Made by a program: the position numbers and the translations under genes. 64,000 bases of DNA from Fibrobacter sp. UWP2 (lineage in GTDB: Bacteria; Fibrobacterota; Fibrobacteria; Fibrobacterales; Fibrobacteraceae): NCBI RefSeq assembly GCF_900141705.1, contig NZ_FQYM01000019.1, positions 1 through 64,000 on the forward strand. Reading direction: 5' to 3'. The notes below the pieces were generated by a model, which saw only the letters and a program-made list of their open reading frames with translations, was not told where the DNA came from and did no database searches. Each line of letters opens with the position of its first letter. Within the stretch, counting starts at the first letter, position 1. Below, piece after piece: positions 37,176 to 51,852 of this stretch.

Positions 37176-38129
37176 ATGGCCTCTTCTCCGTTTGAACAGA
37201 ACATCATTGCCATGGTGTGGGATTGCGACAAGACGCTTATCAGCTCTTACATGCAGGAGCCCCTGTTCCGCCATTTTAATGTGGACGGCGCACAGTTCTG
37301 GAAAGAGGTGAACGGCCTCAAGGCATACTACGGCAGGCAGGGAATCTCGGTGAACCAGGACACCAGCTACCTGAACCATATCTTGACCTACGTGAAGGCT
37401 GGTCTCTTCAAGGGGCTAAACAACCGCCTGCTTCGCGAATTCGGCAAGGAGCTCGTTTTTTACCCGGGCCTTCCGGAATTCTTTGGCGAAATCAAAAAGC
37501 TCATTGAGGACGATCCCAAGTACAAGGCGTTCGACATCCGCCTGGAACATTACGTTGTTAGTACCGGTTTTGCCGAGACCATTCGCGGGAGCGCCATAGC
37601 ACCTTTTGTTGAGGGTATTTTTGGTTGCGAGTTTATTGAAGTCCCTGCGTCGGTGGGCTACCCACAAGACGGGGACTCCGGGCACGGCGAGATATCGCAA
37701 ATAGCCTGCGCCCTCGACAACACTTCCAAGACCCGCTACCTGTTCGAGATCAACAAGGGCAGCAACAAGTACCCCGACACCATCGACGTGAATTCGACGA
37801 TTGCACGCGAGGTGCGTCGCGTGCCCTTCGAGAACATGGTGTATGTGGCCGACGGCCCCTCGGACGTGCCCGCCTTCAGCATTTTGAACTACAATGGCGG
37901 AAGCACGTTCGCCGTGTACCCTGCGGGCGATGTGAATGCCTTTAAGCAGGTGGACGCGCTGCGCCGCGACGGCCGTGTGCAGATGTTCGGCGAGGCCGAC
38001 TACCGCCCCGCCAAGCAGTCGTGGCTGTGGCTGACCGAAAAGGCGCGTGCCATCGCCGACTCGATTGCCGCCAAAAAGCAGGCCGCCATCAAGAACAGCG
38101 CCAGCAACCCTCCGACACACCTGAACTAG
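37176..38129 (+). CDS. HAD-superfamily phosphatase-like protein
   Basis: A 317-residue cytoplasmic protein with the HAD motif I WDCDKTLIS (nucleophile Asp16, general acid Asp18) near the N-terminus and motif III/IV-like VYVADGPSDVPAFS near residues 220-235. It has the DxDKT form seen in phosphoserine-phosphatase-like and related HAD enzymes; a large insertion between motifs I and II forms a helical cap. The substrate cannot be read from sequence. Follows the LytM gene by 12 nt with an ACAGGAG ribosome-binding site, so probably co-transcribed. Confidence 0.85.
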   Translation: MASSPFEQNIIAMVWDCDKTLISSYMQEPLFRHFNVDGAQFWKEVNGLKAYYGRQGISVNQDTSYLNHILTYVKAGLFKGLNNRLLREFGKELVFYPGLPEFFGEIKKLIEDDPKYKAFDIRLEHYVVSTGFAETIRGSAIAPFVEGIFGCEFIEVPASVGYPQDGDSGHGEISQIACALDNTSKTRYLFEINKGSNKYPDTIDVNSTIAREVRRVPFENMVYVADGPSDVPAFSILNYNGGSTFAVYPAGDVNAFKQVDALRRDGRVQMFGEADYRPAKQSWLWLTEKARAIADSIAAKKQAAIKNSASNPPTHLN

Positions 38130-38142
38130 GGCGCGAGTTTAT

Positions 38143-38150
38143 TATATTTA
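38143..38150 (+). promoter_or_regulatory. TAnnTTTA promoter-like element of the rng leader
   Basis: TATATTTA at 38143 would give a start near 38155, exactly at the 5' strand of the closing stem of the leader. No clear TTG element lies at the usual upstream distance. Confidence 0.35.
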
Positions 38151-38287
38151 GCTTACCCTAGGTCGGTGGTGGCGGACGGGCGGTACTTTCCGTCAACATG
38201 CGCTGCCGGCTCGGAAGCGTTCCATACTTTTGGAAGGCTTTTTAGGGTATTTACTATCAAGTTTTGCTTTTACTTTTAGGAGTTTTA
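38151..38287 (+). ncRNA. Structured 5' leader upstream of rng (candidate cis-regulatory RNA)
   Basis: TACCCTA (38154-38160) pairs perfectly with TAGGGTA (38243-38249) to close a multi-branch structure. Inside are GGTGGCG (38168-38174) with CGCTGCC (38201-38207, two G-T wobbles), stacked on GACGG/CCGTC (38175-38194), and TTCCA/TGGAA (38220-38235). The closed element is about 96 nt and ends 38 nt before the rng ATG, so it can influence translation or transcript stability. RNase E autoregulates through its leader in E. coli; this leader does not look like that one by eye. Confidence 0.45.
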
Positions 38288-39823
38288 ATGGCAAATAAGT
38301 GTAAGCGCGGAATCTTGATTAGCAAGACGCCCTACGAAAAGCGCATCGCCATCATGGAAGACGGCGAACTTGCGGAATTGGTCGTAGAGAGCGTCTCGTC
38401 TACTCGAGTTCTGGGCAATATATATAAGGGTGTCGTTCAAAAGGTGCTCCCCGCCTTGAAGGCCGCGTTCATCGATATCGGTCTCGAAAAGGCAGGGTTC
38501 CTCCATCAGGACGATGCCATGGACAGGAACGAGTTGTTGCGTCGCGAATATGGCGACGACGACGACGAGGGCGGCACTTCCAAGGAAGTCTCCATTGACG
38601 AGATTCTCCAGGAAGGCCAGGAAATCATGGTCCAGGTGGTCAAGGAACCGATCAGCACCAAGGGCGCCCGTTTGACGACGCACTTGAGCTTTGCCGGGCG
38701 TTTCCTTGTGTGCATGCCCGGCACCAACTTCATTGGCGTTTCAAAGCGTGAACGCGACCCGGCCAAGCGCCGCGAGTTCAAGAAGGTGGTTCGCCGCCTC
38801 AAGGCCCGCGACGTGGGCTACATCGTGCGCACTAACGGCCTCAACGAGTCGGAGTTCGAAATCAGCAAGCAGATGCGCGAACTCGAGAGCAAGTGGGAAC
38901 AGACGAAGTACAACTTCGAGAACCAGCCTGCCGAGACCTGCATTTACGAGGAGTCGGATTCCATTGAACAGACGGTGCGCGAATACTTCGGTGACAACAC
39001 CGACTACGTGTACATCGACAACCGCGACGAGTACTTCGCCCTTCGCGACTACCTCAAGGTGCTCTCGCCCGACAAACTCGACAAGGTGAAACTCTGGAGC
39101 AGCAGCGAAAGCCTGTTCGAATACTTCAAGATCGAGAACGACTACGCCCGTTCTTTGCAGCGCCAGGTACCGCTCCCGCGAGGTGGCAATCTAGTGATTG
39201 AACAGACCGAGGCGCTCGTGTCCATTGACGTGAACACCGGTCCCAAGGTGCACGGCAAGGACCAGGGCAAGATTATCCTCGAAACAAACATTGACGCCTG
39301 CCACGAAATCGCAAAGCAGCTCCGCCTGCGCGATGTGGGCGGTCTCATCATCATCGACTTCATCGACATGGAAACGGACGCCGACCGCGAGGCGGTGTAC
39401 CAGGAGTTCCGCAAGGCGATCCGCCGCGACAAGGCTCCTATTAGCCCGGCCCCCATCAGCCAGTTCGGCCTCATGGAAGTGACCCGCAAGCGCGTCCGCG
39501 TGAACCTCATGACCGAGAAGACGGAACTCTGCCCCATTTGCCACGGCGGTGGCCGCATCCCGACCATGGAATCCACGCTTGGCATGATTGACCGCTGGAT
39601 GGCCCGCGCCCGCGCCAAGGGACACATCCGTGAAATCACGATGGTCGTCGGTACGCAGCTCGTGGACGTGCTCTGCCGCGACATGGCCCGCATGTTCCAC
39701 TACCTGGAGTACAAGCATGGCATGAAGATCAACCTGGTGGAAGACGATCATGCCCATACGAACCAGTTTTGGATGTACAACAAGGCCAACGAGGACATTA
39801 CCGAAGAATACAACTTCGCCTAA
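38288..39823 (+). CDS. rng: Ribonuclease G/E family endoribonuclease
   Basis: Cleaves single-stranded, AU-rich RNA and processes 16S rRNA ends. I choose ATG 38288 (MANKCKRGILISKTPYEKRI), preceded by TTTAGGAG, giving 511 residues. It has an S1-like RNA-binding domain at about residues 35-130 (VLPALKAAFIDIGLEKAGFL, ISTKGARLTTHLSF), the RNase H-like catalytic region with IIIDFIDMETD, and the zinc-link CPICHG near residue 420. No C-terminal scaffold domain follows, so it is RNase G-like. A hairpin terminator lies after it. Confidence 0.94.
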   Translation: MANKCKRGILISKTPYEKRIAIMEDGELAELVVESVSSTRVLGNIYKGVVQKVLPALKAAFIDIGLEKAGFLHQDDAMDRNELLRREYGDDDDEGGTSKEVSIDEILQEGQEIMVQVVKEPISTKGARLTTHLSFAGRFLVCMPGTNFIGVSKRERDPAKRREFKKVVRRLKARDVGYIVRTNGLNESEFEISKQMRELESKWEQTKYNFENQPAETCIYEESDSIEQTVREYFGDNTDYVYIDNRDEYFALRDYLKVLSPDKLDKVKLWSSSESLFEYFKIENDYARSLQRQVPLPRGGNLVIEQTEALVSIDVNTGPKVHGKDQGKIILETNIDACHEIAKQLRLRDVGGLIIIDFIDMETDADREAVYQEFRKAIRRDKAPISPAPISQFGLMEVTRKRVRVNLMTEKTELCPICHGGGRIPTMESTLGMIDRWMARARAKGHIREITMVVGTQLVDVLCRDMARMFHYLEYKHGMKINLVEDDHAHTNQFWMYNKANEDITEEYNFA

Positions 39824-39985: not shown

Positions 39986-42900
39986 CTAGTCGTTGACATC
40001 GATCTCATGCTGGACAGCCTTGCCGCGGCGCACGCCCATCAAGAAGTCTCGTACCGATTCCTTGATGACTTCGCCGGCGACGGTAATGGTGTATTCCAGG
40101 CGGGAGATGTACACGCCCGTACCGACCAACTTGCCGTTGCTCGAACGCATATTCCAGGCGAGGAAGATGTTGCCACTGTTGGTAAGGCAGTTCTTGCCTT
40201 CGCCATAGATGCCTTCGTCGGCGCACGTGAACGAGCCTGCTTCACCGTTAATATAGTGACCCAGGTGACTGTAGTAGTGCGTGCGGTACCTGAGCACGAT
40301 TTCCTCGGGCTTGATCACAGAGGTGAGACCCTTGGCGAATTCGTCGATGTTGCTTGCGTTCAGGTTGCCCGACTTGATGGAGTTGATAATCAGGTTGCTG
40401 ATGCCGTATTCCTCGAGTTTTTCGGCGCTGATGGCTCCGCTTGCAATGGAGTCGAGCACGCTTTGCTCGGTGGCGTACGGGTAGGTGACCACGGTGTCGC
40501 GGCTCAGGTCAATGGCTTCTTGGACAAGTTCTGCGATGGTGTTCATGTCGTCATTCGAGAGACCTAGGGTTTTGTAGTTGCTCGCAGTGATGACCCCTGC
40601 CATAATGCCCGCCACGACATCTTCCGAGAGGTTGCTTTGACCGAGTTGGTCGTTGCGGATGTCCTCGAAGAGTTGCAGTGTGGCGACGTCCTCAGAAATC
40701 TTGTTGATGGTGACGACCGAGTCCTTCATGTAGCGCTCGATGAGAGCTTGCAATGTGGCGACTTCCTCGGTGGTCTTGTTGTTGACCAGGGAGGCGAGCG
40801 TAAAGCCAATGAGGTTGCCCTGCACACCCAGGGAGTCGGCAATCTGCTTTGCGGTCAGGTTCGAGTCGGCACGCATGGGCTGCGTTGCAGAATCGCTCTT
40901 GACAATGGGGTTCTCGTTGTTGAGCAATACCACGCCAGGGCTGGTTGTTGTTGTGGCCTGGTCACCCGTGATGGGCACCCACTGGTTCCATAGGTGCGGC
41001 TTGTTCTTGAGCAGGCTCTTGTCTTCGGCTACGGTTCCACCATCTTCGGCCGGGGTAAAGCGGACGATGTCGCCGACTTCGGGCACGTATTCTCCGGCGC
41101 CCTGCGAAACATACACGAGCGTGAGTTTGCTTCCGCTGACAGTGTGATCCCTGGAGGTCGGGAGCTTGAGTTCTCCCTGGCTCTTGAACTGCAGCATGTC
41201 GTCGCTGAATTTGCCGTCAATGGGTTCGGAAACCGTCAGGTCCAGAATGTGCTTGGTACCGTCGATGGTCTTGCGGGCTCGGGTTACCACAGGGCCGATG
41301 CCGTCGGAAATGGGCTCGTTTCTGATGATGAAATGGTAGTCCTTGCCGCTTTCCTTGTACGTGATGTACGTGGTCATGGTGCCGGGGGCGTCGGAGCCGT
41401 CACCGGTGAACACCTTGCTCCCGAAGCCGCAGCTTTCGCCTTCGCCGCAGTTGCCAGGAACCGTGATTGTGAGAATGGTGCCGCTGGCATCCAGGTGTTT
41501 TTCCATGGGGAACTGCTCGCCAAAGTAAACTTGCAGGGAGTCGAGCACGTTCTGGTTGTCAAACGCCTTGTCGAATTCCATTTTGAGCTTGTCACCGCGG
41601 CCATCGCCGTTGCGGTCGCTGATGATGGCGAGCTTCACGTGCGGAATCGGCGGTTCGGTAAAGTTCAAGTTGGTCCAGAATGCCTTGACATTGCCGCTGC
41701 CGGTAATGGTCAGGTTCGCCCCGGCCACATTGCCGTTCGCCATCACATAGAACGTGGCGTGCTTGTCGATGGAGTCGAGGGCGACGCTTGTGATGCTCTT
41801 GCCGTTTTCATCGGTGATGAATACGAGCGGGTTGTCGACGGCGATTTTGATGGTCTTGTTGTACTTGGTCCATTTCACGTCCTTGTCCTTGAAAGTGATG
41901 TTGACCTTGTACATTTCGTAAGCCCACTTGCCGATGGTCGCCTGGTTGCCCACGACTTCGAGACCGTCCTTGTCGCCAATGAGTTTCCAGTTTTCGTCGG
42001 CGTAGGCGATGGCGGGGGCGTTGCCCGGCACAATGATTTCGACTCTCTTCTTTTGGCTGCCCTTGGATTTCAAGGTGATTTCCAAGAAGTAGTGACCCGG
42101 CGGCAGGTCGGATTCGTCGACAATCTTTGCAGAGTCGATAGTGAAAGTGGTGTCGCTTGTGATTTTGATGCCCGCATGGTAGGTATGACCGGGAAGGAAT
42201 TCCTCGTCGACCGTGCTGCCCACAAAGCGGTAAGTGGAGGGGCCGCCCGTGGTGTCGGTCTTGGTCTGGTCGGCGTCAAAGTCGCAGTTGAGCACGTCCT
42301 TCTTGTTGATGGACCAAATGTTGTAATCCTTGACGCCAAGTGCCTGCTGAATCCAGGTGAGGAACATGGAGGCGTCGGTGTGCAGGTCCATGGAGGTGCG
42401 CATCTTGAAGTTCGAGGAACTCTGGTGGCGTTCGGCATAGAAGATGTGGAAGGGGTAGGTCTCGCCCGGGGTAAGCCCCAGGGTATCCAAGTTTACAGAG
42501 CCCGCCACCTGTGCGTGCTGACCGCCGATGTCCACCACCAACTTTTTGTTGATGAACACCCACACGTCGTCGTCGCCCAGGAACTCGAAGTACTGGCCGG
42601 GAACGTAGACGAACTTGGCTTGGAACTTCATGGTAAAGCCGAAGTTGTGCCTTCCGTTGTCGCTACCACCCGACAAATTGTCGTAGAAGGGGTTCGGGAC
42701 AGTCCCGCCTTCATCCAAGAATTTGAAATCGTCCAAGAGGAACATGCCGCCTCTGTTGACCTCGTTGCCCTTAGAAATGCGGTCCTTGGAAATCTCGGCA
42801 AGCCAAAAGCCTTCGTCATCCAAAGAAATGGCGAGGTCGCGGCAAGCGGCGTTGGTGTAGATGTTGCCCGCGGCGTCTTGCCCGGCAACCACAGGGAGGA

Positions 42901-43675
42901 ACCAGTAGTCCAAATGTTCTGTAATTGTACATTTTTCGGGGAATGGGGTTGCCCTGACTGGCACGCCGTTGGGACCCAGGTCCTTTTGGACCATGCCCCT
43001 CATGGGGCTTGAACTACAACCACCTGAACCAAAGTCGTCACTAATGGCGAAGCCGACGGCGTATGGGCTTCCCAAGCCCACCTCTGGGTCAAGTTCCTTG
43101 GCGCCATTATTGAAGGTTGTGTCTTCTACGCCATTCCTGGTTCTTACTGAAAAGGTTCCGTCTTTTTTGTTGCCATGCAGCCAGTCGAACATCATCACCG
43201 AGATGTTCCTCAAGGGGCAGTCGCCCAGCACGTTAGGGTATTCCGATGTGACTTCGGGAGCGTCGTTCTCGTAGCCACGAACCCAGATGGTGTTGCCGAG
43301 GGCGGCGACGCTGTCGAGGGAGAGTTCCTCGGTCACGGGGAGGGCGCCCGTGGCGACTTCCTCGGAGCCTTCTCCGCCAACGTAGATGTTGCCGATGGTC
43401 TGCTTGAAGCGGACCGTGAAGTTGGCGTCTTTCTTGTCGGTTTTTGCCTCGAACCATCCGCAGTAATCCTCTACGGCGGTCATTGTAATCTCTTTGCCGT
43501 CAATAATCATGATGGCAGAGGTGTTTGTCCAGAAAGGCATGAAACGAATAGTCGTGTTACCGCTATTCGTTGGGCCGGCACCACCAGGATTGTCCCTGCC
43601 ACCGGCCTGCGCAAAAGACATAACTGTTAGGGTCAAGCATATAACCAGACCCTTATATAGGGACTTGTACCACAT
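39986..43675 (-). CDS. Giant secreted fibro-slime domain protein 1
   Basis: A 1229-residue exported protein (start ATG 43675, chosen by analogy with the next paralogue; ATG 43681 is an alternative). The signal peptide MWYKSLYKGLVICLTLTVMS is followed by an N-terminal module with DYCGWF, a fibro-slime domain (about residues 305-430: [33 protein letters not shown]), Ig-like middle modules, a calcium-loop-like [10 protein letters not shown] near residue 683, a helical stretch rich in Ala/Leu/Glu, and a C-terminal module with [20 protein letters not shown] that looks FlgD-like. Fibro-slime proteins of Fibrobacter succinogenes are found at the cell surface. The last 12 residues differ from those of the next two paralogues. 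Confidence 0.88.
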   Translation of the reverse strand: MWYKSLYKGLVICLTLTVMSFAQAGGRDNPGGAGPTNSGNTTIRFMPFWTNTSAIMIIDGKEITMTAVEDYCGWFEAKTDKKDANFTVRFKQTIGNIYVGGEGSEEVATGALPVTEELSLDSVAALGNTIWVRGYENDAPEVTSEYPNVLGDCPLRNISVMMFDWLHGNKKDGTFSVRTRNGVEDTTFNNGAKELDPEVGLGSPYAVGFAISDDFGSGGCSSSPMRGMVQKDLGPNGVPVRATPFPEKCTITEHLDYWFLPVVAGQDAAGNIYTNAACRDLAISLDDEGFWLAEISKDRISKGNEVNRGGMFLLDDFKFLDEGGTVPNPFYDNLSGGSDNGRHNFGFTMKFQAKFVYVPGQYFEFLGDDDVWVFINKKLVVDIGGQHAQVAGSVNLDTLGLTPGETYPFHIFYAERHQSSSNFKMRTSMDLHTDASMFLTWIQQALGVKDYNIWSINKKDVLNCDFDADQTKTDTTGGPSTYRFVGSTVDEEFLPGHTYHAGIKITSDTTFTIDSAKIVDESDLPPGHYFLEITLKSKGSQKKRVEIIVPGNAPAIAYADENWKLIGDKDGLEVVGNQATIGKWAYEMYKVNITFKDKDVKWTKYNKTIKIAVDNPLVFITDENGKSITSVALDSIDKHATFYVMANGNVAGANLTITGSGNVKAFWTNLNFTEPPIPHVKLAIISDRNGDGRGDKLKMEFDKAFDNQNVLDSLQVYFGEQFPMEKHLDASGTILTITVPGNCGEGESCGFGSKVFTGDGSDAPGTMTTYITYKESGKDYHFIIRNEPISDGIGPVVTRARKTIDGTKHILDLTVSEPIDGKFSDDMLQFKSQGELKLPTSRDHTVSGSKLTLVYVSQGAGEYVPEVGDIVRFTPAEDGGTVAEDKSLLKNKPHLWNQWVPITGDQATTTTSPGVVLLNNENPIVKSDSATQPMRADSNLTAKQIADSLGVQGNLIGFTLASLVNNKTTEEVATLQALIERYMKDSVVTINKISEDVATLQLFEDIRNDQLGQSNLSEDVVAGIMAGVITASNYKTLGLSNDDMNTIAELVQEAIDLSRDTVVTYPYATEQSVLDSIASGAISAEKLEEYGISNLIINSIKSGNLNASNIDEFAKGLTSVIKPEEIVLRYRTHYYSHLGHYINGEAGSFTCADEGIYGEGKNCLTNSGNIFLAWNMRSSNGKLVGTGVYISRLEYTITVAGEVIKESVRDFLMGVRRGKAVQHEIDVND

Positions 43676-43720
43676 TCCCATCGCTCCTCTCAAATAGAAA
43701 CCCAACCATTAGGGCGATGT

Positions 43721-43753
43721 GTTAAATATCACATTTTCAAGGGTGAAAGTCAA
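43721..43753 (-). promoter_or_regulatory. Promoter-like motif for fibro-slime gene 1 (TTG-N22-TATTTAAC)
   Basis: Read on the minus strand; TTG (43753-43751) and TATTTAAC (43728-43721). Part of a shared pattern in front of the three paralogues. Confidence 0.4.
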
Positions 43754-43859
43754 CCAAAATTTACTTTTCATAAAAAAATTATGTGTAAAATCAACAAAAA
43801 CCGCCACTTTTGAGGTGACGTTTGCTGCTTTTGGCCAGCCATGGAACAGAAAGTTCCGT

Positions 43860-43884
43860 AAAAAGGCTTATTTTTGCCTTTTTT
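43860..43884 (-). terminator. Terminator of fibro-slime gene 2
   Basis: AAAAAGGC and GCCTTTTT arms with an 8-nt loop, 8 nt below the gene 2 stop. Read on the minus strand it ends in a T-tract. An AT-rich stem, so moderate confidence. Confidence 0.6.
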
Positions 43885-43891
43885 GGGCGAT

Positions 43892-46800
43892 TTAAAGCCC
43901 AAAGTCCATGGCGTTCGCTTTGCCGCGCCGGACCCCCCATAGGAAGTCGCGGGTCGATTCCTTGACTGTTTCGCCCGCAATGGTGATGGAGTATTCTAGG
44001 CGGGAGATGTACACGCCGGTACCTACCAGCTTGCCGTTGCTTGTCCGCATGTTCCAGGCGAGGAATATGTTGCCGCTGTTGGTGAGGCAGTTCTCTCCCT
44101 CCCCGTAAACCTTTTCGTCGGCGCAGGAGAAGGAACCCGATTCCTTGTTGATAAAGTGGCCCAGGTGACTGTAATAGTGCGTTTGGTAATTGAGCACTAT
44201 TTCGGTTGGGTTCACGACGGAAATGAGTCCCTGGGCGAATCCGTCGATATTCGTTGCGTTGAGGTCGCCTTTTTTGATGGATTGGATGACTTGGTCGCTA
44301 ATGCCGTAATCCTTGAGCTTCGCGTTGGAGATGGTACCGTTCGCGATGGCGTCCAGCACGCTCTGCTCTGTGGCGTAGGGGTAGGTGATCGCGGTGTCGC
44401 GACTGTTTTCTACGACGGTGTTGACCAGTTCGTTGATGGTGGCCACGTCCTCGGCGGAGAGACCTATGGTGGTGTAGTTGGTGGCGGTTATGGTGCCGGC
44501 CATGATACCCGCTAGGGCGTCTTCCGACAGGTTGCTGCCGCCAATGTTGTCGTTCAGAATGTCGCTAAACACCTGCATGGCGGCGGAATCTAGGGGCATT
44601 TGCGTGACGGTGACAACGGAGTCGGTCATGTAGCGCTCGATAAGCGCCTCGAGAGTCTCGATTTCTTCGGTGGTCTTGCTGGTGACGAGGGAGGCGAGGG
44701 TAAAGCCGATGAGGTTCCCCTGCACGCCCTTCTCAGCGGCCAGCTGCTTGGCGGTGAGGTTGGTGTCGGCACGCACGGGGGTGGAAGCCGTCTCGGTGTT
44801 GGTGTACTTAAAGGTAGAATCGTTGGTGGGGTCCATTACGATAACGCCCGGGCTGGTGACTGTCGTGGACTGTTCGCCGTTGATTTTGACCCAGGGGTTC
44901 CACAAGTGGGGCTTGTTGCCTACGGGGTCTAGCGCAGTGGTGGGGCTCGCTTCGCTGGGAGTCAATCGCACCAGGTCGCCCGCGTCGGGAATGTATTCGT
45001 CGGCGCCCTGGGTCACGAATATGAGTGTCAACTGGTTGCCGCGGCTTTCGTGCCCGCGGGATACGGGCACCCGCAATACCCCGTTGCTGGAATACGCAAT
45101 CATTTCGTCGCTATAGCCCTCTTGGAGGGTTTCGGAAAAGGTGAGGCTCAAAATGTGCTTGTTGCCGTCGATGGTCTTTTTCGCCTTGGTCACGATGGGG
45201 CCGATGCCGTCGGCAATGGGCTCGTTGCGGATGGTGAAGTGGTAGCTTTTGCCGTTCTCCCTGTAGGTCACGTAGGTGGTCATGTTGCCGGTGTAAACGC
45301 CGTCGGTTCCGCCCGTGAAAATCTTGGTGCCAAAACCGCAGGTCTCGTTCTCGCCGCAGGTGCCCGGGGCCGTCAAAGTGATGCTGGTTCCGTTGTTCGT
45401 AATGTTGAACTGCCTTTCCATGGGGAACTGCTCGCCAAAGTACACCTGCAGGGAGTCCAGGACGTTTTGGCTGTCAAAGGGCTTGTCGAAGGCCAGGTCG
45501 ATCTTGTCGCCGCGCCCGTCGCCGTTGCGGTCGTAGATGGTGGCGGTCTTTACGTGGGGTACGACCGGCTCGGCAAAATTCAGGCGAGTCCAATAGGCCT
45601 TCACGTTGCCGCTCCCCGTTGCGGTGAGGGTGGCGTTCTCCACCGGGCCATTGGCGATCACGTAGAATACGGCGTGCTTTTCGGCGTCCATGGTCACGGA
45701 GGAGATGGACTTGCCGTTTGCATCCACAAGGGAAACCAGCGGGTTGTCGATGGCGAGCCGGATGTTCTTGTTGTAGTTGGTGAGCTTGGCCGACTCATCC
45801 TTGAAGGTCACGTGGACCTCGTATTTTTCGTAGGCCCACTTGCCAATCTGCAGGGAATCGCCAGAGACTTCGGTGCCTAGGATTTTCCAGTTGGAATCGG
45901 CGTAGGCGATGGCCGGGGCGTTGCCGGGGACGGTGATTTCCACCTTGGCGGTTTGGTTGGGGTCCGATTTCAAGGTGATGTACAAGAAGTAGTGGCCCGA
46001 GGGCAAATCGGAGTAGTCGACTATCCTTACGGAGTCAATGGTGAACGTGGTGTCGCTGGTGATGTTGATGCCTTCGAAATAGGTTACCCCGGACTTGAGC
46101 GTGGTATCGATGGTGCTGCCCACTAGGCGGAACGTGGATGCGCCGCCGGTGGTGTCGGTGGTGGTTTGCGCCTGGGCGGAAAAGTCGCAGCTGAGGGCGT
46201 CCTTCTTGTTGATTTGCCAAATGTCATAGTCGGTTTTGCCCAGCGCCATCTGGTTGGGAGTGAGGAACATGGATGCATCGGCCTGCAGGTCCATGGAGGT
46301 GCGCATCTTGAAGTTGCCCTCCACCTTGTAGCGCTCGGTGTAGAAGATGTTGAACGTGTAGGTTTGGCCTGCAGTGAGCCCCAGGGTATCCAGGTCTACC
46401 GAGGCGCTGCGGCGGTCGTGCACGCCGCCGATGTCCACTACCAGCCTGCCGTCGATAAACACCCAAACGTCGTCGTCGCCCAAAAATTCAAAGTACTGGC
46501 CCGGCACGTACTCGAACTTGGCCTGCACCTTCATGGACATGCCGTAGTTGTGGTATGCCCTGTTGCTGCTCTTGCCGCTGCCGTCAATGCCCGTAAAGCC
46601 GCTGGGGATGGAATCGTAATAGGGGTTCGGGATTGTCTTTTCGTCGTCCAGGAACTGGAAGTCGTCTATGAGGAACATGCCTCCGCGGGCGTCGCCTGTG
46701 GATTCGCCGGCGTCGCGGTCCATCTGGGCGCGCCAAATGCCGTCGTCGTCTAGTACAAGGGTCATGTTGCGGCATGTGGCGTTGGTGTAGCTCCTGCCGT

Positions 46801-47629
46801 TTTTGACGGCGAGGGTTTCGGGAATAAACCAGCGGTTCAGATACTCGGCATTTTTGCATTGGCCTTCCCAGTCAAAACTCTCGTTGCGGACGGGCACGCC
46901 GTTTGGCCCCAGAGTGGGCAAGACCATGCCGTTGATTACCGACTTGCCATCGTTATTGCAGCCGCCGGTCTCGTTGCTATTGCTGCCCTTGGTGCCCTTG
47001 GGCGTGGAATTGGGCCAGCACAGGTTATTGTTGTCGCCGCCAAAGTCACTGCTGATGCCGTCGCCGCCGCGCGATGCGGTGCCGCCCAGTTCTGCGGCGC
47101 GGGTCTGGGGGTTGTATTTTTCGGCGTTGCTGTACGAGCCGTCGTACCAGTCGAACATCATCACGGGCAAGTCTTTTACGGGGCAGTCCCCCAGTACACC
47201 CGGGTGGGCCGAACTGAGTTCGGGGGCGTCGGCCTTGAACGCGCGAACCCAAATGGAATCGCCTTCGGCGAAGATGCTGTCGATGGGGATTTCGTTGTCG
47301 ACGGTAATGGCGGATTCCTCGATGCCCACCATGCCGTAATACTTGTAGCCGATGGTCTGCTTAAAATAAAGCATGGAGGTTTGTTCGAGTGTGACGTTCG
47401 CCTTGAACCACCCGCAATAATTGTCGACCTTCTTCATGATGGCGGTGGAATCGCCGTCCACGTAAATAATGGCGGACGTGTTGGTCCATGGTGTCATGAA
47501 AAATACGGTCTTGCTTTTCCCGGCTGCAGACGAGGGCTCGTCGTCGTTGTATCTCCCTGGTTGAGCCTGCAGGCTTGTTGCGAGGGCAAGCCCGAAGGCA
47601 AGCCCCACGGCTAGTTTGCTATACCACAT
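43892..47629 (-). CDS. Giant secreted fibro-slime domain protein 2
   Basis: A 1245-residue paralogue of the previous protein and its closest relative by eye. Signal peptide [21 protein letters not shown]-terminal DNYCGWFKA module; an Asn/Gly-rich loop with [16 protein letters not shown]; fibro-slime domain at about residues 313-441 ([40 protein letters not shown]); Ig-like middle region; [13 protein letters not shown] at about 700; helical segment; C-terminal FlgD-like module with [13 protein letters not shown] ending [15 protein letters not shown] 47629 follows GGAG. Probably exported; binding ligand unknown. Confidence 0.88.
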
Positions 47630-47648
47630 CCCATCACTCCAAGTGTTT

Positions 47649-47677
47649 AAAAATTATTTGCACCAATAATTTGACAA
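47649..47677 (-). promoter_or_regulatory. Promoter-like motif for fibro-slime gene 2 (TTG-N18-TAATTTTT)
   Basis: On the minus strand; TTG (47677-47675) and TAATTTTT (47656-47649). The region 47690-47800 is strongly AT-rich. Confidence 0.45.
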
Positions 47678-47837
47678 AAGAAAAATATTTTAAAATTCGT
47701 CAAAATTCAATAGTTTTTATACATAAGTGTGTAAAAACTTTTTGCAAATGGCGGAAAAATGCGTGTTTTTCGCGCATTTCGGGAATTTTTGCCCCGTAAA
47801 GTGCCCGTGAGGGGTGCGGCAAAAAAGGGACTACAGA

Positions 47838-47869
47838 AAAGGCACCCCATATTTATACAGGGTGCCTTT
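47838..47869 (-). terminator. Terminator of fibro-slime gene 3
   Basis: Perfect 10-bp arms AAAGGCACCC/GGGTGCCTTT with a 12-nt loop, 32 nt below the gene 3 stop. Read on the minus strand a short T-run follows. Confidence 0.8.
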
Positions 47870-47901
47870 GGTTCTTGGAGTGTATAGAAATATATTGAGA
47901 C

Positions 47902-50900
47902 TTAAAGCCCAAAGTCCATGGCGTTCACATTGCCGCGGCGTACCCCCCAGAGGAAGTCTCTTGCCTGCTTGCTGATGGTGTTGCTGTTGACCGAAATCTT
48001 GATTTCGAGACGGGCGATGTAAATGCCCGTGGCGGCCAGGCGCCCCCCGCTTGAACGCATGTTCCAGGCGAGGAAGAACCGTCCGTTGTTTTCAAGGCAG
48101 TCGCTGGCGCCGTCGGCCTTGAAAATGTCGTCGGTGCAACGGATGGAGCCTTCGTCGCGGTTCACAAAGTGGCCCAGGCTCGTATAGTAGGTCGCCCTGT
48201 ACCAGAGCTCGGTATTGTCGGCGACGGTTACGGCGATTTGTTCGATGTCGGCCTCAGAACCACTCTCGTAATAGCGCAGGTTTTCTTTGGTCAGAAGGCC
48301 GTTCTCGTAAGCGTCCACAATAATGTCGGGGAGGCCCAAACGGTCCTGGGCGTCGTCAATGGAGAGTTTCCCTGCACTCACGGCGTTCAGGATCTCTTCA
48401 AGGGTGTAAGTGTCATGGGGGTCGCCGTTTTCGACGGCCTCTTTGTCGGTGTATGTCGTTTTGCCTTGGACCGCTTTGACAATCTCTGCAATCTCGTTAC
48501 GGACAAGTGAACCCATATCGAGGTCGCCCAGGTAGTGACCTTGCGTGCCGTAAATGGCGGCGACCTGCTGTGCCGTGAGTTTTTGCTCGCCGCTCACCAA
48601 CTTGGGGACGGTCGCCGATTCGCTCCTTACAATGGCGCTTGCGCTGTCAAAGACATCGGAATGCCTGTCAAGAACTACGACTGTGGGGCTTGTGATACGC
48701 ACGCTCTGTTCACCGGTGATGCGTGCCCACGGGTTCAGCTCGTGTGGCGGAACGTTGACCAGGTCGAGTGCGAGCCCTCCAATGGAAGGCGGCGTAAAGC
48801 GGATGGAGTCGCCCACGGTCGGTACTACGTCATGGACGCTTCCCTTGACATAAATCAATGTCCATTGGTTTGCCGAGGATGTGGCAATGTGGGCGGGTTG
48901 AATCAGGTTGCTCAACTGGCTTGTGGCGCTGTTGTTGCGGAAGCGGAAGAAGTCGACATTGGCGCCTTCCTTGTTGATTCCTTCGCTGAACGTCAGCTGC
49001 AGTTGTGTGTTGCCGTCATCCGAAATGGAAATCTCGGCGGCGGTAATGACCGGGCCCACCTTGTCGGTAAGCTGCCCCTCGACAGGGAATACGGCGGTGG
49101 ATTTGTCTTCGGGATCTGTATAGGTGTACCAGATGTTCAGTTTGCCAGAATAGGGGCTGGAGGCGCCGCCGGTGAAAATGCCCCTGCCAAAGCAGTTCTT
49201 GGCGGCGACGATGGTGGCGACGTCTTCGCCAATTTTGTATGTGACTTTGTTGAAGCTGTTGTTCTTGGGAAGCGTGTAGGCGCTGTCGTTGATGCCAAAG
49301 ACGAACTTGAGTGAATCAAGAACGCTGGAATCACTCAGCGGTTTGTTGAAGTGGATCCAAATGCTATCGCTTCGTCCATCCCCGTTGCGGTCATAAATGT
49401 AGGCGCTCTCGATTTGCGGAACAGGCGGTTCCTTCATGTTGATTTGCGTCCACAGGGCCTGCTTGTTCTTGGAGGAAATTGACGAGATGGTCAACGTGGC
49501 GTTTACGATTTCGCCGGTGCCCCTAACAAAGAAGTTCGCCTTGCCGGAGTCGAGTACGACCTCGGTGATGGGGTTCCCCATGGAGTCGCAGGCGATGAGG
49601 AGCGTGTCGGAGGTCTTGATCTCAACCTTGATACCGCTGTAAATGCTGGCCCATTCTTCGGCATACATGATGCTTACGGGGTACGAGCGGCCAGCCCACA
49701 TCTTTTCGTTCTTGTTCAAATTGAGCGGGAGTGTGTCGCTGCTGACATTAAAGACCATGGAGTCGTTTTCGAGCAGGCTGCCGTACGGGTACCAGTACTT
49801 GTCAAAACAGAGGGAGTCCGTTTCGTCTTCCGATTCGATGTTCAAAATGCAATAGCTGGAGTCCTTTACGCCTGAGAAGGCGATGTTCGGGAATTCGTAC
49901 GGGTCCACGGTAAAGTAAACATCCTTGAAGTCGTTGGGGTTCGTCTTGAGGGAAACGCGGACAAAGTAAGTTCCCGGCGGCAGCGCCTTTGCCTTGGTGA
50001 TGGCCTTGGGGTCAATGGTAATCATGGTGAAGTCGTTGCCGATGGTGATGCCATTGTAGTAGAGGGAATCCAGTATGTTCAAGGCGACGCCCTTGCCGCT
50101 AAGGCTTCTGCCAAAGAGGACAAAGTTCGAGGGGCCTCGCTCGGTGTGTTCCAGTTCTGGAGTCGACGAGAAGTCGCAAGCCAGTTTGCGCTCACGAATA
50201 ATCTGCCACACTTCCTTCTTGATGATCTTGGGGGCGTCCGAAATGTCGGTCAACAGCATGCTCGATTCCACATGCAAGTCGATGGACGTTTTCATCATGA
50301 AGTTCGAGGCTTCGCGCTTGCGTTCGGCGTAAAAGATGTGGAAGTTGTAGGTGGAGTCTTCTTCGAGGCCCAGCTTGTCGAGGTTGACGCTTTTTTTCAC
50401 CTTCTTGTGCTGGCCGCCAATGTCCACGACCAGTTTATTGTCGATGAACACCCACACGTCGTCGTCGCCGTTGAACTCAAAGTACTGCCCCTTCACGTAC
50501 TGGAAGGTGGCCTGGATTTTCATGGCGAAACCGAAGTTGTGGTAGCCGCGGCCCGAACCTGCGTACAACGAATCGTAATGCGGGTTCTCTATGGTGCCTG
50601 CACTGTCGAGGTAGCGGAAGTCGTCGAGAAGGAATAGTCCCTGCTCGGGGCTCTCGTCGTCGATTTGCGCATACCAGAATCCTTCGTCGGTGAGGCTGAG
50701 CGGGATTTCGCGGCAGGTGACGTTCGTGTATTCGTTGCCGGCGTCATCCTTGGCGAGAACCTCGGGCAAGAACCAGTCATTCAAGTGGGTGGCGTTTGTG
50801 CAGTTGCTGGGGAAGTTGGAGGCGCGTACGGGGACACCGTTGGCGCCCAGTTCCTTTTCGACCATGCCTGTCATGGGGTCGGCTTCGCAACCGCTCTTGC

Positions 50901-51852
50901 CAAAGTCCTGACTTGTGCCTTCGCCGTACATGGGGACGCCGCGTACATCGAACCCGGTGCGGCCCGCGCCTTTTTTGCGTTGCCATTCTTCGTAGGCGTC
51001 CTTGGTGCCGTCGGAATTTACGGTGCCGTCGTACCAGTCGAACATCATCACGGGTAAGTTTTTAATGGGGCAGTCGCCCAATACTTCGGGATACTCGCTA
51101 AAGAGTTCAGGGGAGCCGAACTGGAATCCCTGTACCCAGATAGTGTCGGTGAGGGCGGCGATGGAATCAAGGCTGATTTCTTGGTCAGGTGAGATTTCTT
51201 CTTTGGTAGGGCCCTCGATGCCTACGGAAGTCCCGCCGATAGTTTGTTTGAAATAGACGTAGAACTCGCCTTTGGGGGGCGTAATCTTGGCTTCGAACCA
51301 TCCGCAGTAATTGGGGACGGAGGACATGTAGCTTTCGCTGCCGTTTACGTACAAAAGGGCGTTGGTATTGCTCCAGGGCGCCAAAAAGCGGATGACTTTC
51401 TTTTGAGAAACGGGAATGTCCAGCTTGGTGGGTGAAATGGTTAGGGTGCTGTCGTCGTTGATGATAATCCAGACTTCGGCAATGGCCTGGCTGTCGACTC
51501 CGTTTTGGTAATCGGGGAAGAGCTCCGCCAAATACGGTTCGTGTCCTTCGTTCAAGTTGGTTTTGCAGGAACCCTCGTTGCAGCCAAGCCCAAAGCGGAG
51601 CTGGCGTACGGTTTCGCGCCCTTCGCGGTCGGAACCTTCAAGGCGTTCTTGCTTGAACTCGATGGTGAACATGTCGTCTTCACCACGGGTCAGGGAATGA
51701 TACTTGAAATTAGATTCGTTGTCGGCGTAATAAATGGTATTTCCGCCGTCATAAATGACGTGGGCGATAGCTACATAATCTGCGGCACTCACGCAAACAA
51801 CTAACGGGGCGAGGCACAACACCAAACCCCGGAGCAGGCCTTTAATCCTCAT
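47902..51852 (-). CDS. Giant secreted fibro-slime domain protein 3, with extra N-terminal domain
   Basis: A 1316-residue, more divergent paralogue. The signal peptide MRIKGLLRGLVLCLAPLVVC is followed by about 115 residues not present in the other two (from DYVAIAHVIYDGGNTIYYAD to about the LDIPVS segment), then the shared N-terminal module with NYCGWFEAK, fibro-slime domain at about 400-522 ([39 protein letters not shown]), Ig-like modules, DRNGDGRSDS at about 817, and a C-terminal module with LAATGIYIARLE ending RRGNVNAMDFGL. ATG 51852 is preceded by AGGAGAA. Part of a three-gene tandem array. Confidence 0.87.
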   Translation of the reverse strand: MRIKGLLRGLVLCLAPLVVCVSAADYVAIAHVIYDGGNTIYYADNESNFKYHSLTRGEDDMFTIEFKQERLEGSDREGRETVRQLRFGLGCNEGSCKTNLNEGHEPYLAELFPDYQNGVDSQAIAEVWIIINDDSTLTISPTKLDIPVSQKKVIRFLAPWSNTNALLYVNGSESYMSSVPNYCGWFEAKITPPKGEFYVYFKQTIGGTSVGIEGPTKEEISPDQEISLDSIAALTDTIWVQGFQFGSPELFSEYPEVLGDCPIKNLPVMMFDWYDGTVNSDGTKDAYEEWQRKKGAGRTGFDVRGVPMYGEGTSQDFGKSGCEADPMTGMVEKELGANGVPVRASNFPSNCTNATHLNDWFLPEVLAKDDAGNEYTNVTCREIPLSLTDEGFWYAQIDDESPEQGLFLLDDFRYLDSAGTIENPHYDSLYAGSGRGYHNFGFAMKIQATFQYVKGQYFEFNGDDDVWVFIDNKLVVDIGGQHKKVKKSVNLDKLGLEEDSTYNFHIFYAERKREASNFMMKTSIDLHVESSMLLTDISDAPKIIKKEVWQIIRERKLACDFSSTPELEHTERGPSNFVLFGRSLSGKGVALNILDSLYYNGITIGNDFTMITIDPKAITKAKALPPGTYFVRVSLKTNPNDFKDVYFTVDPYEFPNIAFSGVKDSSYCILNIESEDETDSLCFDKYWYPYGSLLENDSMVFNVSSDTLPLNLNKNEKMWAGRSYPVSIMYAEEWASIYSGIKVEIKTSDTLLIACDSMGNPITEVVLDSGKANFFVRGTGEIVNATLTISSISSKNKQALWTQINMKEPPVPQIESAYIYDRNGDGRSDSIWIHFNKPLSDSSVLDSLKFVFGINDSAYTLPKNNSFNKVTYKIGEDVATIVAAKNCFGRGIFTGGASSPYSGKLNIWYTYTDPEDKSTAVFPVEGQLTDKVGPVITAAEISISDDGNTQLQLTFSEGINKEGANVDFFRFRNNSATSQLSNLIQPAHIATSSANQWTLIYVKGSVHDVVPTVGDSIRFTPPSIGGLALDLVNVPPHELNPWARITGEQSVRITSPTVVVLDRHSDVFDSASAIVRSESATVPKLVSGEQKLTAQQVAAIYGTQGHYLGDLDMGSLVRNEIAEIVKAVQGKTTYTDKEAVENGDPHDTYTLEEILNAVSAGKLSIDDAQDRLGLPDIIVDAYENGLLTKENLRYYESGSEADIEQIAVTVADNTELWYRATYYTSLGHFVNRDEGSIRCTDDIFKADGASDCLENNGRFFLAWNMRSSGGRLAATGIYIARLEIKISVNSNTISKQARDFLWGVRRGNVNAMDFGL

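Follow-up and report, generated by a model that had tools for sequence, protein, structure and literature searches.

Results

A structured RNA in front of rng

Directly upstream of rng, a gene for an enzyme of the RNase E/G family, the genome of Fibrobacter sp. UWP2, a member of a genus of gut bacteria, contains a region that is predicted to fold into a compact RNA. This raises the questions to which gene the RNA belongs and whether the enzyme could act on it. The window, i.e. the whole stretch of DNA that was analyzed, comprises 64,000 nucleotides (positions 1 to 64,000 of contig NZ_FQYM01000019.1). The features discussed below are the following.

38143–38149, forward strand: TATATTT, promoter -10-like element (18 sense versus 2 antisense occurrences in 112 upstream regions)
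38145–38247, forward strand: divergent copy of Fibrobacter-1 RNA (RF02983), 77.8 bits at a gathering score of 77.9, E 4e-17, model positions 1–102 of 102
38154–38160, forward strand: 5′ strand of the closing stem P1, from the minimum free energy (MFE) fold; over the family 98% of the cells are paired and 3 of 7 pairs covary, in an anchor-based re-alignment that was built knowing the structure and leans towards it
38161–38174 (family core 38162–38166), forward strand: 5′ strand of the long-range helix P2; double changes in all 5 core pairs and 95.9% of the cells paired in the unmodified MAFFT alignment of 44 leaders
38179–38194, forward strand: hairpin P3, GGCGG-UACUUU-CCGUC, loop at 38184–38189, invariant over all 44 distinct leaders; outer pair covarying (G-C/U-A)
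38199–38211 (family core 38206–38210), forward strand: 3′ strand of P2, from the MFE fold and the unmodified MAFFT alignment
38213–38242, forward strand: hairpin P4 with the upper stem UUCCA/UGGAA and the loop UACUUU at 38225–38230, which is likewise invariant over the 44 distinct leaders; with covariation
38243–38249, forward strand: 3′ strand of P1, from the MFE fold and the same anchor-based alignment as the 5′ strand
38271–38276, forward strand: extra UACUUU 5′ of AGGAG, from the sequence; absent from some relatives
38278–38282, forward strand: AGGAG, Shine-Dalgarno (SD)-like, from the sequence
38288–39823, forward strand: rng, RNase E/G family protein of 511 aa (TIGR00757, 431 bits, cut-off 326)

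The 96-nt structure has an MFE of -47.6 kcal/mol, which was matched by none of 200 dinucleotide shuffles (z -4.29). For the region 38151–38290, 1 of 200 shuffles was as stable (z -3.66). The preliminary description of the locus had proposed that TACCCTA/TAGGGTA closes a structure of about 96 nt, and this was borne out by P1. It had also placed TTCCA/TGGAA correctly (38220–38224/38231–38235). The helix GGTGGCG/CGCTGCC that it had named exists at 38168–38174/38201–38207 within the longer P2, but the proposed extension by GACGG/CCGTC was wrong. In the MFE fold, CCGTC is not paired with GACGG (38175–38179), but with GGCGG (38179–38183) around the six-nucleotide loop UACUUU, and the outermost pair of this register is kept in 44 of the 44 distinct leaders, with changes from G-C to U-A. 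In the window, P3 sits on the long helix P2, and the same hexaloop tips both P3 and P4. The 12-mer of P4 occurs once in the genome. The possibility that UACUUU is a frequent hairpin loop of this genome was considered and rejected, as 2 such hairpins were found versus 0.6 expected in 464 kb.

The RNA is a divergent member of RF02983

No known family had been recognized for this RNA, which turned out to be incorrect: RF02983 matches over its whole model with the E value given above. At the Rfam gathering threshold, only a tRNA is found in the window, and RF02983 misses the threshold by 0.1 bit. In a relaxed search the second-best Rfam match had an E value of 1.3, and RF00040 (rne5, the E. coli rne leader) yielded no match up to E 10 in the region 38050–38400. 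Fibrobacter-1 RNA was reportedly described by Weinberg et al. 2017.

The window copy has the lowest score of the 55 copies in the genus, and it deviates from the model by its longer P2 and by a broken local hairpin in addition to the missing 0.1 bit. It shares with the family the genus, the outer stem P1, both UACUUU hairpins, and the genomic place, which is 5′ of rng on the same strand as for the 54 members above the cut-off. On this orthology, the RNA is counted as a divergent member of RF02983. The Rfam entry itself differs from the present data in two respects. Its structure line lacks P2 and instead contains a local hairpin between P1 and P3, and its type, "Gene; sRNA", ignores the link to rng.

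Covariation supports P1 and the long-range helix P2

Removal of 11 identical copies from the 55 leaders left 44 distinct leaders for a covariance analysis, as had been suggested for this locus, and the analysis supports P1 and P2. The scores for P2, and for P2, P3, and P4 together, were calculated with P1 left out from the MAFFT alignment unchanged. P2 reached a covariation score of 0.736 versus a shuffled mean of 0.424 (0 of 500 shuffles reached it) and a slid maximum of 0.365. The slid control weighs more, because related sequences can beat such shuffles. For P2, P3, and upper P4, the score was 0.341 versus 0.182. Further pair types were no more numerous than in the shuffles, 126 and 243 of 500 of which reached the count. 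RNAalifold recovered P2, P3, and part of P4 from the MAFFT alignment. It also paired the 5′ strand of P1 with the SD motif, and this pairing was discarded after it had been traced to a one-base misalignment of the 3′ strand of P1. P2, which the preliminary description had glimpsed, is thus supported by covariation in the compared sequences.

The long-range P2 and the local hairpin (P2′) overlap by up to three pairs. Over the family, about 90% of the cells of the local hairpin are paired in the anchor-based alignment. Most leaders accommodate a three-pair P2 together with a shortened local hairpin, while the window has the long P2 and a local hairpin that is broken by two G-G oppositions.

The RNA is very probably a cis-acting leader of rng

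The preliminary description had placed a promoter so that transcription would start at the closing stem. In the window, 4 nt separate the end of TATATTT from TACCCTA. Across the 44 distinct leaders, the CCCYAG core of P1 starts 5 nt past TATATTT in 42 and 6 nt past it in the window and one other leader. In a sample of about 464 kb of this genome, in which genes were called by a simple script, TATATTT was 9-fold enriched on the sense strand. Near-fixed spacing and strand enrichment together lead us to expect the transcription start at P1. A scan with the sigma-70 consensus, which is unlike TATATTT, found no promoter in the window. A literature search for transcription starts or promoters of Fibrobacter succinogenes found nothing. 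As a side observation, TATATTT often lies 32–36 nt before start codons and looks like the usual -10 element of the sampled genome.

All 55 copies of the RNA lie directly upstream of rng and on its strand, and in the 44 distinct leaders the 3′ strand of P1 ends 34–52 nt 5′ of the start codon. In the window, no terminator-like site is found between the structure and rng. Because of the uniform position, the promoter spacing, the covariation, and the absence of a terminator-like site in the window, the view that a structured leader is transcribed together with rng is well supported. Position, covariation, and protein family agree in pointing to a structured 5′ leader in cis of an RNase E/G gene, and on these comparisons we consider it very probable that the RNA acts in cis.

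The preference for a cis-acting leader bears on the Rfam type, according to which the RNA would be a trans-acting small RNA with the loops as seed regions. Conserved unpaired loops would suit this function. However, a position directly upstream of rng on the same strand in 55 of 55 cases, a distance of 34–52 nt from P1 to the start codon, and the lack of a terminator-like site in between in the window speak against it, and we regard it as highly improbable. A processed fragment of the leader that acts in trans is possible.

Distribution of the leader and two types of RNase G

RF02983 was found in 55 of 167 genomes of the phylum, all of them among the 80 genomes of the genus Fibrobacter, with one copy each and 54 over the cut-off. 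The covariance-model search found no copy in 87 genomes of the phylum outside the genus and in 14 control genomes; weak relatives may have been missed, because Infernal was run with stricter filters. The rng gene is present in 78 of the 80 genus genomes. The RNA is combined with a single-unit RNase G in 55 of the 80, a fused RNase G without the RNA is found in 20, and in 2 (G025, with rng cut by the contig end, and G072) a single-unit RNase G has a leader with P1 only. The remaining 3 could not be classed, as G051 and G068 had no rng match and the match in G054 was limited to 53 residues. The two P1-only leaders (L083 of G025 and L062 of G072) lack the arms P2–P4 and are natural deletions, recombinants, or assembly effects.

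The leaders with the RNA, including their AU-rich tails, had a mean z of -1.6, and 15 of 55 were below -2, at no more than 40 rough shuffles per leader. A conserved UACUUU at the SD motif was considered as a further element and rejected, because only 30 of the 55 have the hexamer at a distance of up to 25 nt from the start codon.

The window Rng is RNase-G-like in size, and on the RNase G equivalog model it scores 362 versus 594, which is below the cut-off. Its residues D314/D357 and C415/C418 align with D303/D346 and C404/C407 of the E. coli enzyme. D303 and D346 are catalytic residues. Among the single enzymes of the genus, D357 is present in 45 of 45 rows reaching it and D314 in 45 of 46. 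At the position equivalent to F67, a Phe is present in all 56 genus rows and all 23 outgroup rows having the residue. In PMC5222698, RN|WUU is given as the core motif shared by about 22,000 RNase E sites, and its U+2 is read by a uracil pocket that F67 and K112 form. AC|UUU of both hexaloops fits this motif.

The 20 fused enzymes (1029–1037 aa) are head-to-tail in-frame fusions of two RNase G copies. The loci include L286, L288–L293, L295, and L299–L303, for example L288:920–4024 on the forward strand. In the N half, the two Asp residues that align with the catalytic D303 and D346 of E. coli are kept in 20 of 20, and the F67-equivalent Phe is replaced in 20 of 20 (V 18, I 1, S 1). In the C half, the F67-equivalent Phe, K112, and the 5′-sensor residues R169/T170 are kept in 20 of 20, a Lys occupies the D346 position in 20 of 20, and D303 is also lost in 9 of 20. 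Judged from the alignment, catalysis and RNA reading appear to have been separated by nature onto the two halves of the fused enzyme. An AlphaFold2 model of the fused enzyme (12 sequences) was of too low quality to be informative, with a mean pLDDT of 51.6 and a pTM of 0.27.

None of the 20 fused-type leaders has either UACUUU hairpin loop. A clear 5′-proximal stem is predicted for 19 of them, 14 with a z below -2, and the leader of G053 has no convincing stem (-2.4 kcal/mol). The leaders of G027 and G029 show a P1/P2/P4-like architecture with unrelated letters, several others have a P4-like stem with another loop, and seven consist of P1 alone. UACUUU as such has not been purged, because 10 of the 20 fused leaders carry it just 5′ of the SD motif.

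Leader and rng seem to have been exchanged together

In the rng tree, the N halves of the fused enzymes form one group (SH-aLRT 100) and so do the C halves (SH-aLRT 99); these values come from a quick method, the genus rows with a single enzyme do not come out as one resolved group, and the outgroup row G125 carries a wrong label. In contrast, the fused genomes are scattered in the trees of Lon (63 rows) and RpoB (36 rows). Grouping of the fused genomes was rejected with 35 RpoB rows including 12 fused (p 5e-66; 6 changes, or 7 if G053, dropped as a suspect contig, is kept) and with 38 of the 63 Lon rows including 14 of the 20 fused (p 1e-93; 6 changes). The short RpoB contig of G053 (L227) falls almost identically with G059 in the tree, which is not the case for Lon, and it is probably a contaminant in the assembly. 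As the genomes are mostly metagenome assemblies, some misplacement in the trees is possible. The strong conflict of the rng tree with the Lon and RpoB trees indicates that rng alleles were exchanged between lineages.

A fibro-slime gene lies downstream of rng on 10 of 13 fused contigs and 23 of 40 others, and a HAD gene upstream on 6 of 13 and 17 of 40, respectively, with counts limited by contig ends and the 2.5-kb flank; counted among the 40 others are a contig from outside the genus, a contig that has only the 3′ part of rng, and two P1-only cases. HAD was also considered as a species marker and given up, as it was too often missing from the stretches compared. Because both types share neighbours at many loci, replacement in place, with leader and gene jointly, is the simplest account, and rng alleles and their leaders seem, from these comparisons, to have been exchanged in this way between lineages. 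That leader and gene travel together supports cis linkage and lends no support to the idea that the loops were lost several times independently. G024, which branches deepest within the genus in the Lon and RpoB trees, has the RNA, which suggests, without proof, that the RNA preceded the fusion. In the window itself, the region 39986–51852 encodes on the reverse strand three consecutive large proteins of 1239, 1245, and 1316 aa that contain a single fibro-slime domain (TIGR02148) apiece.

Discussion

A possible self-control of RNase G

The preliminary description had seen in the leader a candidate for autoregulation, and this appears plausible on the circumstantial fit between leader and enzyme: the loops are invariant and RN|WUU-like, and they are lacking where the catalytic half of the enzyme has lost the Phe of the uracil pocket. 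We propose, with the case evenly balanced, that RNase G limits its own mRNA by binding or cutting the twin loops. Transcription would start at or within a few nucleotides of P1, and the 5′ end, base-paired in P1, would be hidden from attack that depends on a free 5′ end. P1 and P2 would hold P3 and P4 so that two identical single-stranded loops are presented, and the identical protomers of an RNase G dimer could engage both loops together (two-site direct entry) and bind or cut them at AC|UUU. Plentiful free RNase G would then lower rng expression; if the enzyme is busy elsewhere, the leader would survive and more enzyme would be made. By analogy, a two-site substrate would be expected to look like this leader, with a sealed 5′ end followed by a pair of identical loops that both fit RN|WUU. 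RNase E is described in PMC3997798 as controlling its own mRNA via a leader hairpin, and its cleavage is believed to be more rapid if two single-stranded segments of a substrate are in contact with the enzyme.

A further-reaching version is tentative, and we consider it doubtful. Each of the twin loops would dock on one of the identical sites of the RNase G dimer, and the RNA would thereby meter the free enzyme. In the one-chain hybrid, with a catalytic N half that lacks the Phe and a C half that would be a pseudo-nuclease with the pocket, this symmetry would be gone and the loops would have been discarded, with the 5′ stem mostly staying. Two cassettes, the RNA with the single RNase G and a loop-less leader with the hybrid RNase G, may accordingly have replaced each other across Fibrobacter; as part of the same version, this is equally tentative.

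Several observations argue against a reading of the loops by RNase G. The loops are more constant than the degenerate RN|WUU needs, even at positions at which variation is allowed, and this constancy also suits a tertiary contact or another ligand. In G025 and G072, the arms are missing next to an RNase G of the single type, the UACUUU close to the SD motif is poorly kept, and the RNA-type leaders as a whole exceed rough shuffles only mildly in stability. The uracil pocket of the C half might serve the active site of the N half. In addition, because leader and rng are adjacent and move together, a single hitchhiking event may account for the absence of the loops from the fused allele.

The constancy of the letters, including those of the junction UCGGA, would also be expected if another RNA-binding protein or a small molecule read the loops or the junction, with P2 versus P2′ as a switch, and the two helices indeed compete for up to three positions at which both are mostly paired over the family. 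Nevertheless, this competition is avoidable through the three-pair P2 with a shortened hairpin, and the hairpin of the window copy is interrupted at two positions. Moreover, the RNA occurs upstream of rng only, once per genome, and no terminator-type expression platform precedes rng in the window, so that another binder has a small chance of being right. The persistence of the 5′ stem where the arms are gone, in G025 and G072 and in nearly all fused leaders, instead draws attention to stability. Stabilizing 5′-terminal stems are known (work cited in PMC3997798), and the leader might mainly block RppH- and 5′-sensor-dependent decay by its stem, with the arms adding stability and no feedback. 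Such a role is improbable in our view, as it leaves two invariant identical loops and the covarying P2 unexplained, and the fused leader of G053 lacks a convincing stem.

Comparison with other leaders and outlook

A comparable system is the E. coli rne leader, which likewise precedes an RNase E/G gene and has a hairpin that is believed to be recognized by the enzyme (PMC3997798). It is unlike the Fibrobacter leader in its length, 361 nt from the start to the start codon (PMC10989929) versus about 130 nt from the presumed start here. The Fibrobacter leader has two identical loops and a 5′-terminal closing stem, and its self-control is a proposal. The rne 5′-UTR of Synechocystis is similar in that a U-rich leader sequence is under feedback, but that system is described in PMC10989929 as a U-rich element with premature termination. 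In Fibrobacter, the U-rich loops belong to a defined fold, and the window has no terminator-like site from this fold to rng.

As a family, the RNA was known from Rfam. Literature searches that covered part of the literature, with the original family description outside their scope, yielded nothing on its connection with rng, on the long-range helix, on a reading of twin loops, on a fused RNase G with half-inactive chain, or on an exchange of the alleles, and a paper on Fibrobacter and RNase G contained nothing on this leader. An RNA family listed only as an sRNA thus gains a gene, an added helix, and a candidate job. The alleles that are scattered among close relatives are matched pairs for a comparison of leader and enzyme. 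If RNase G reads the twin loops, the leader would illustrate, in compact form, two-site direct entry and the self-control of an RNase beyond the groups in which it has been studied.
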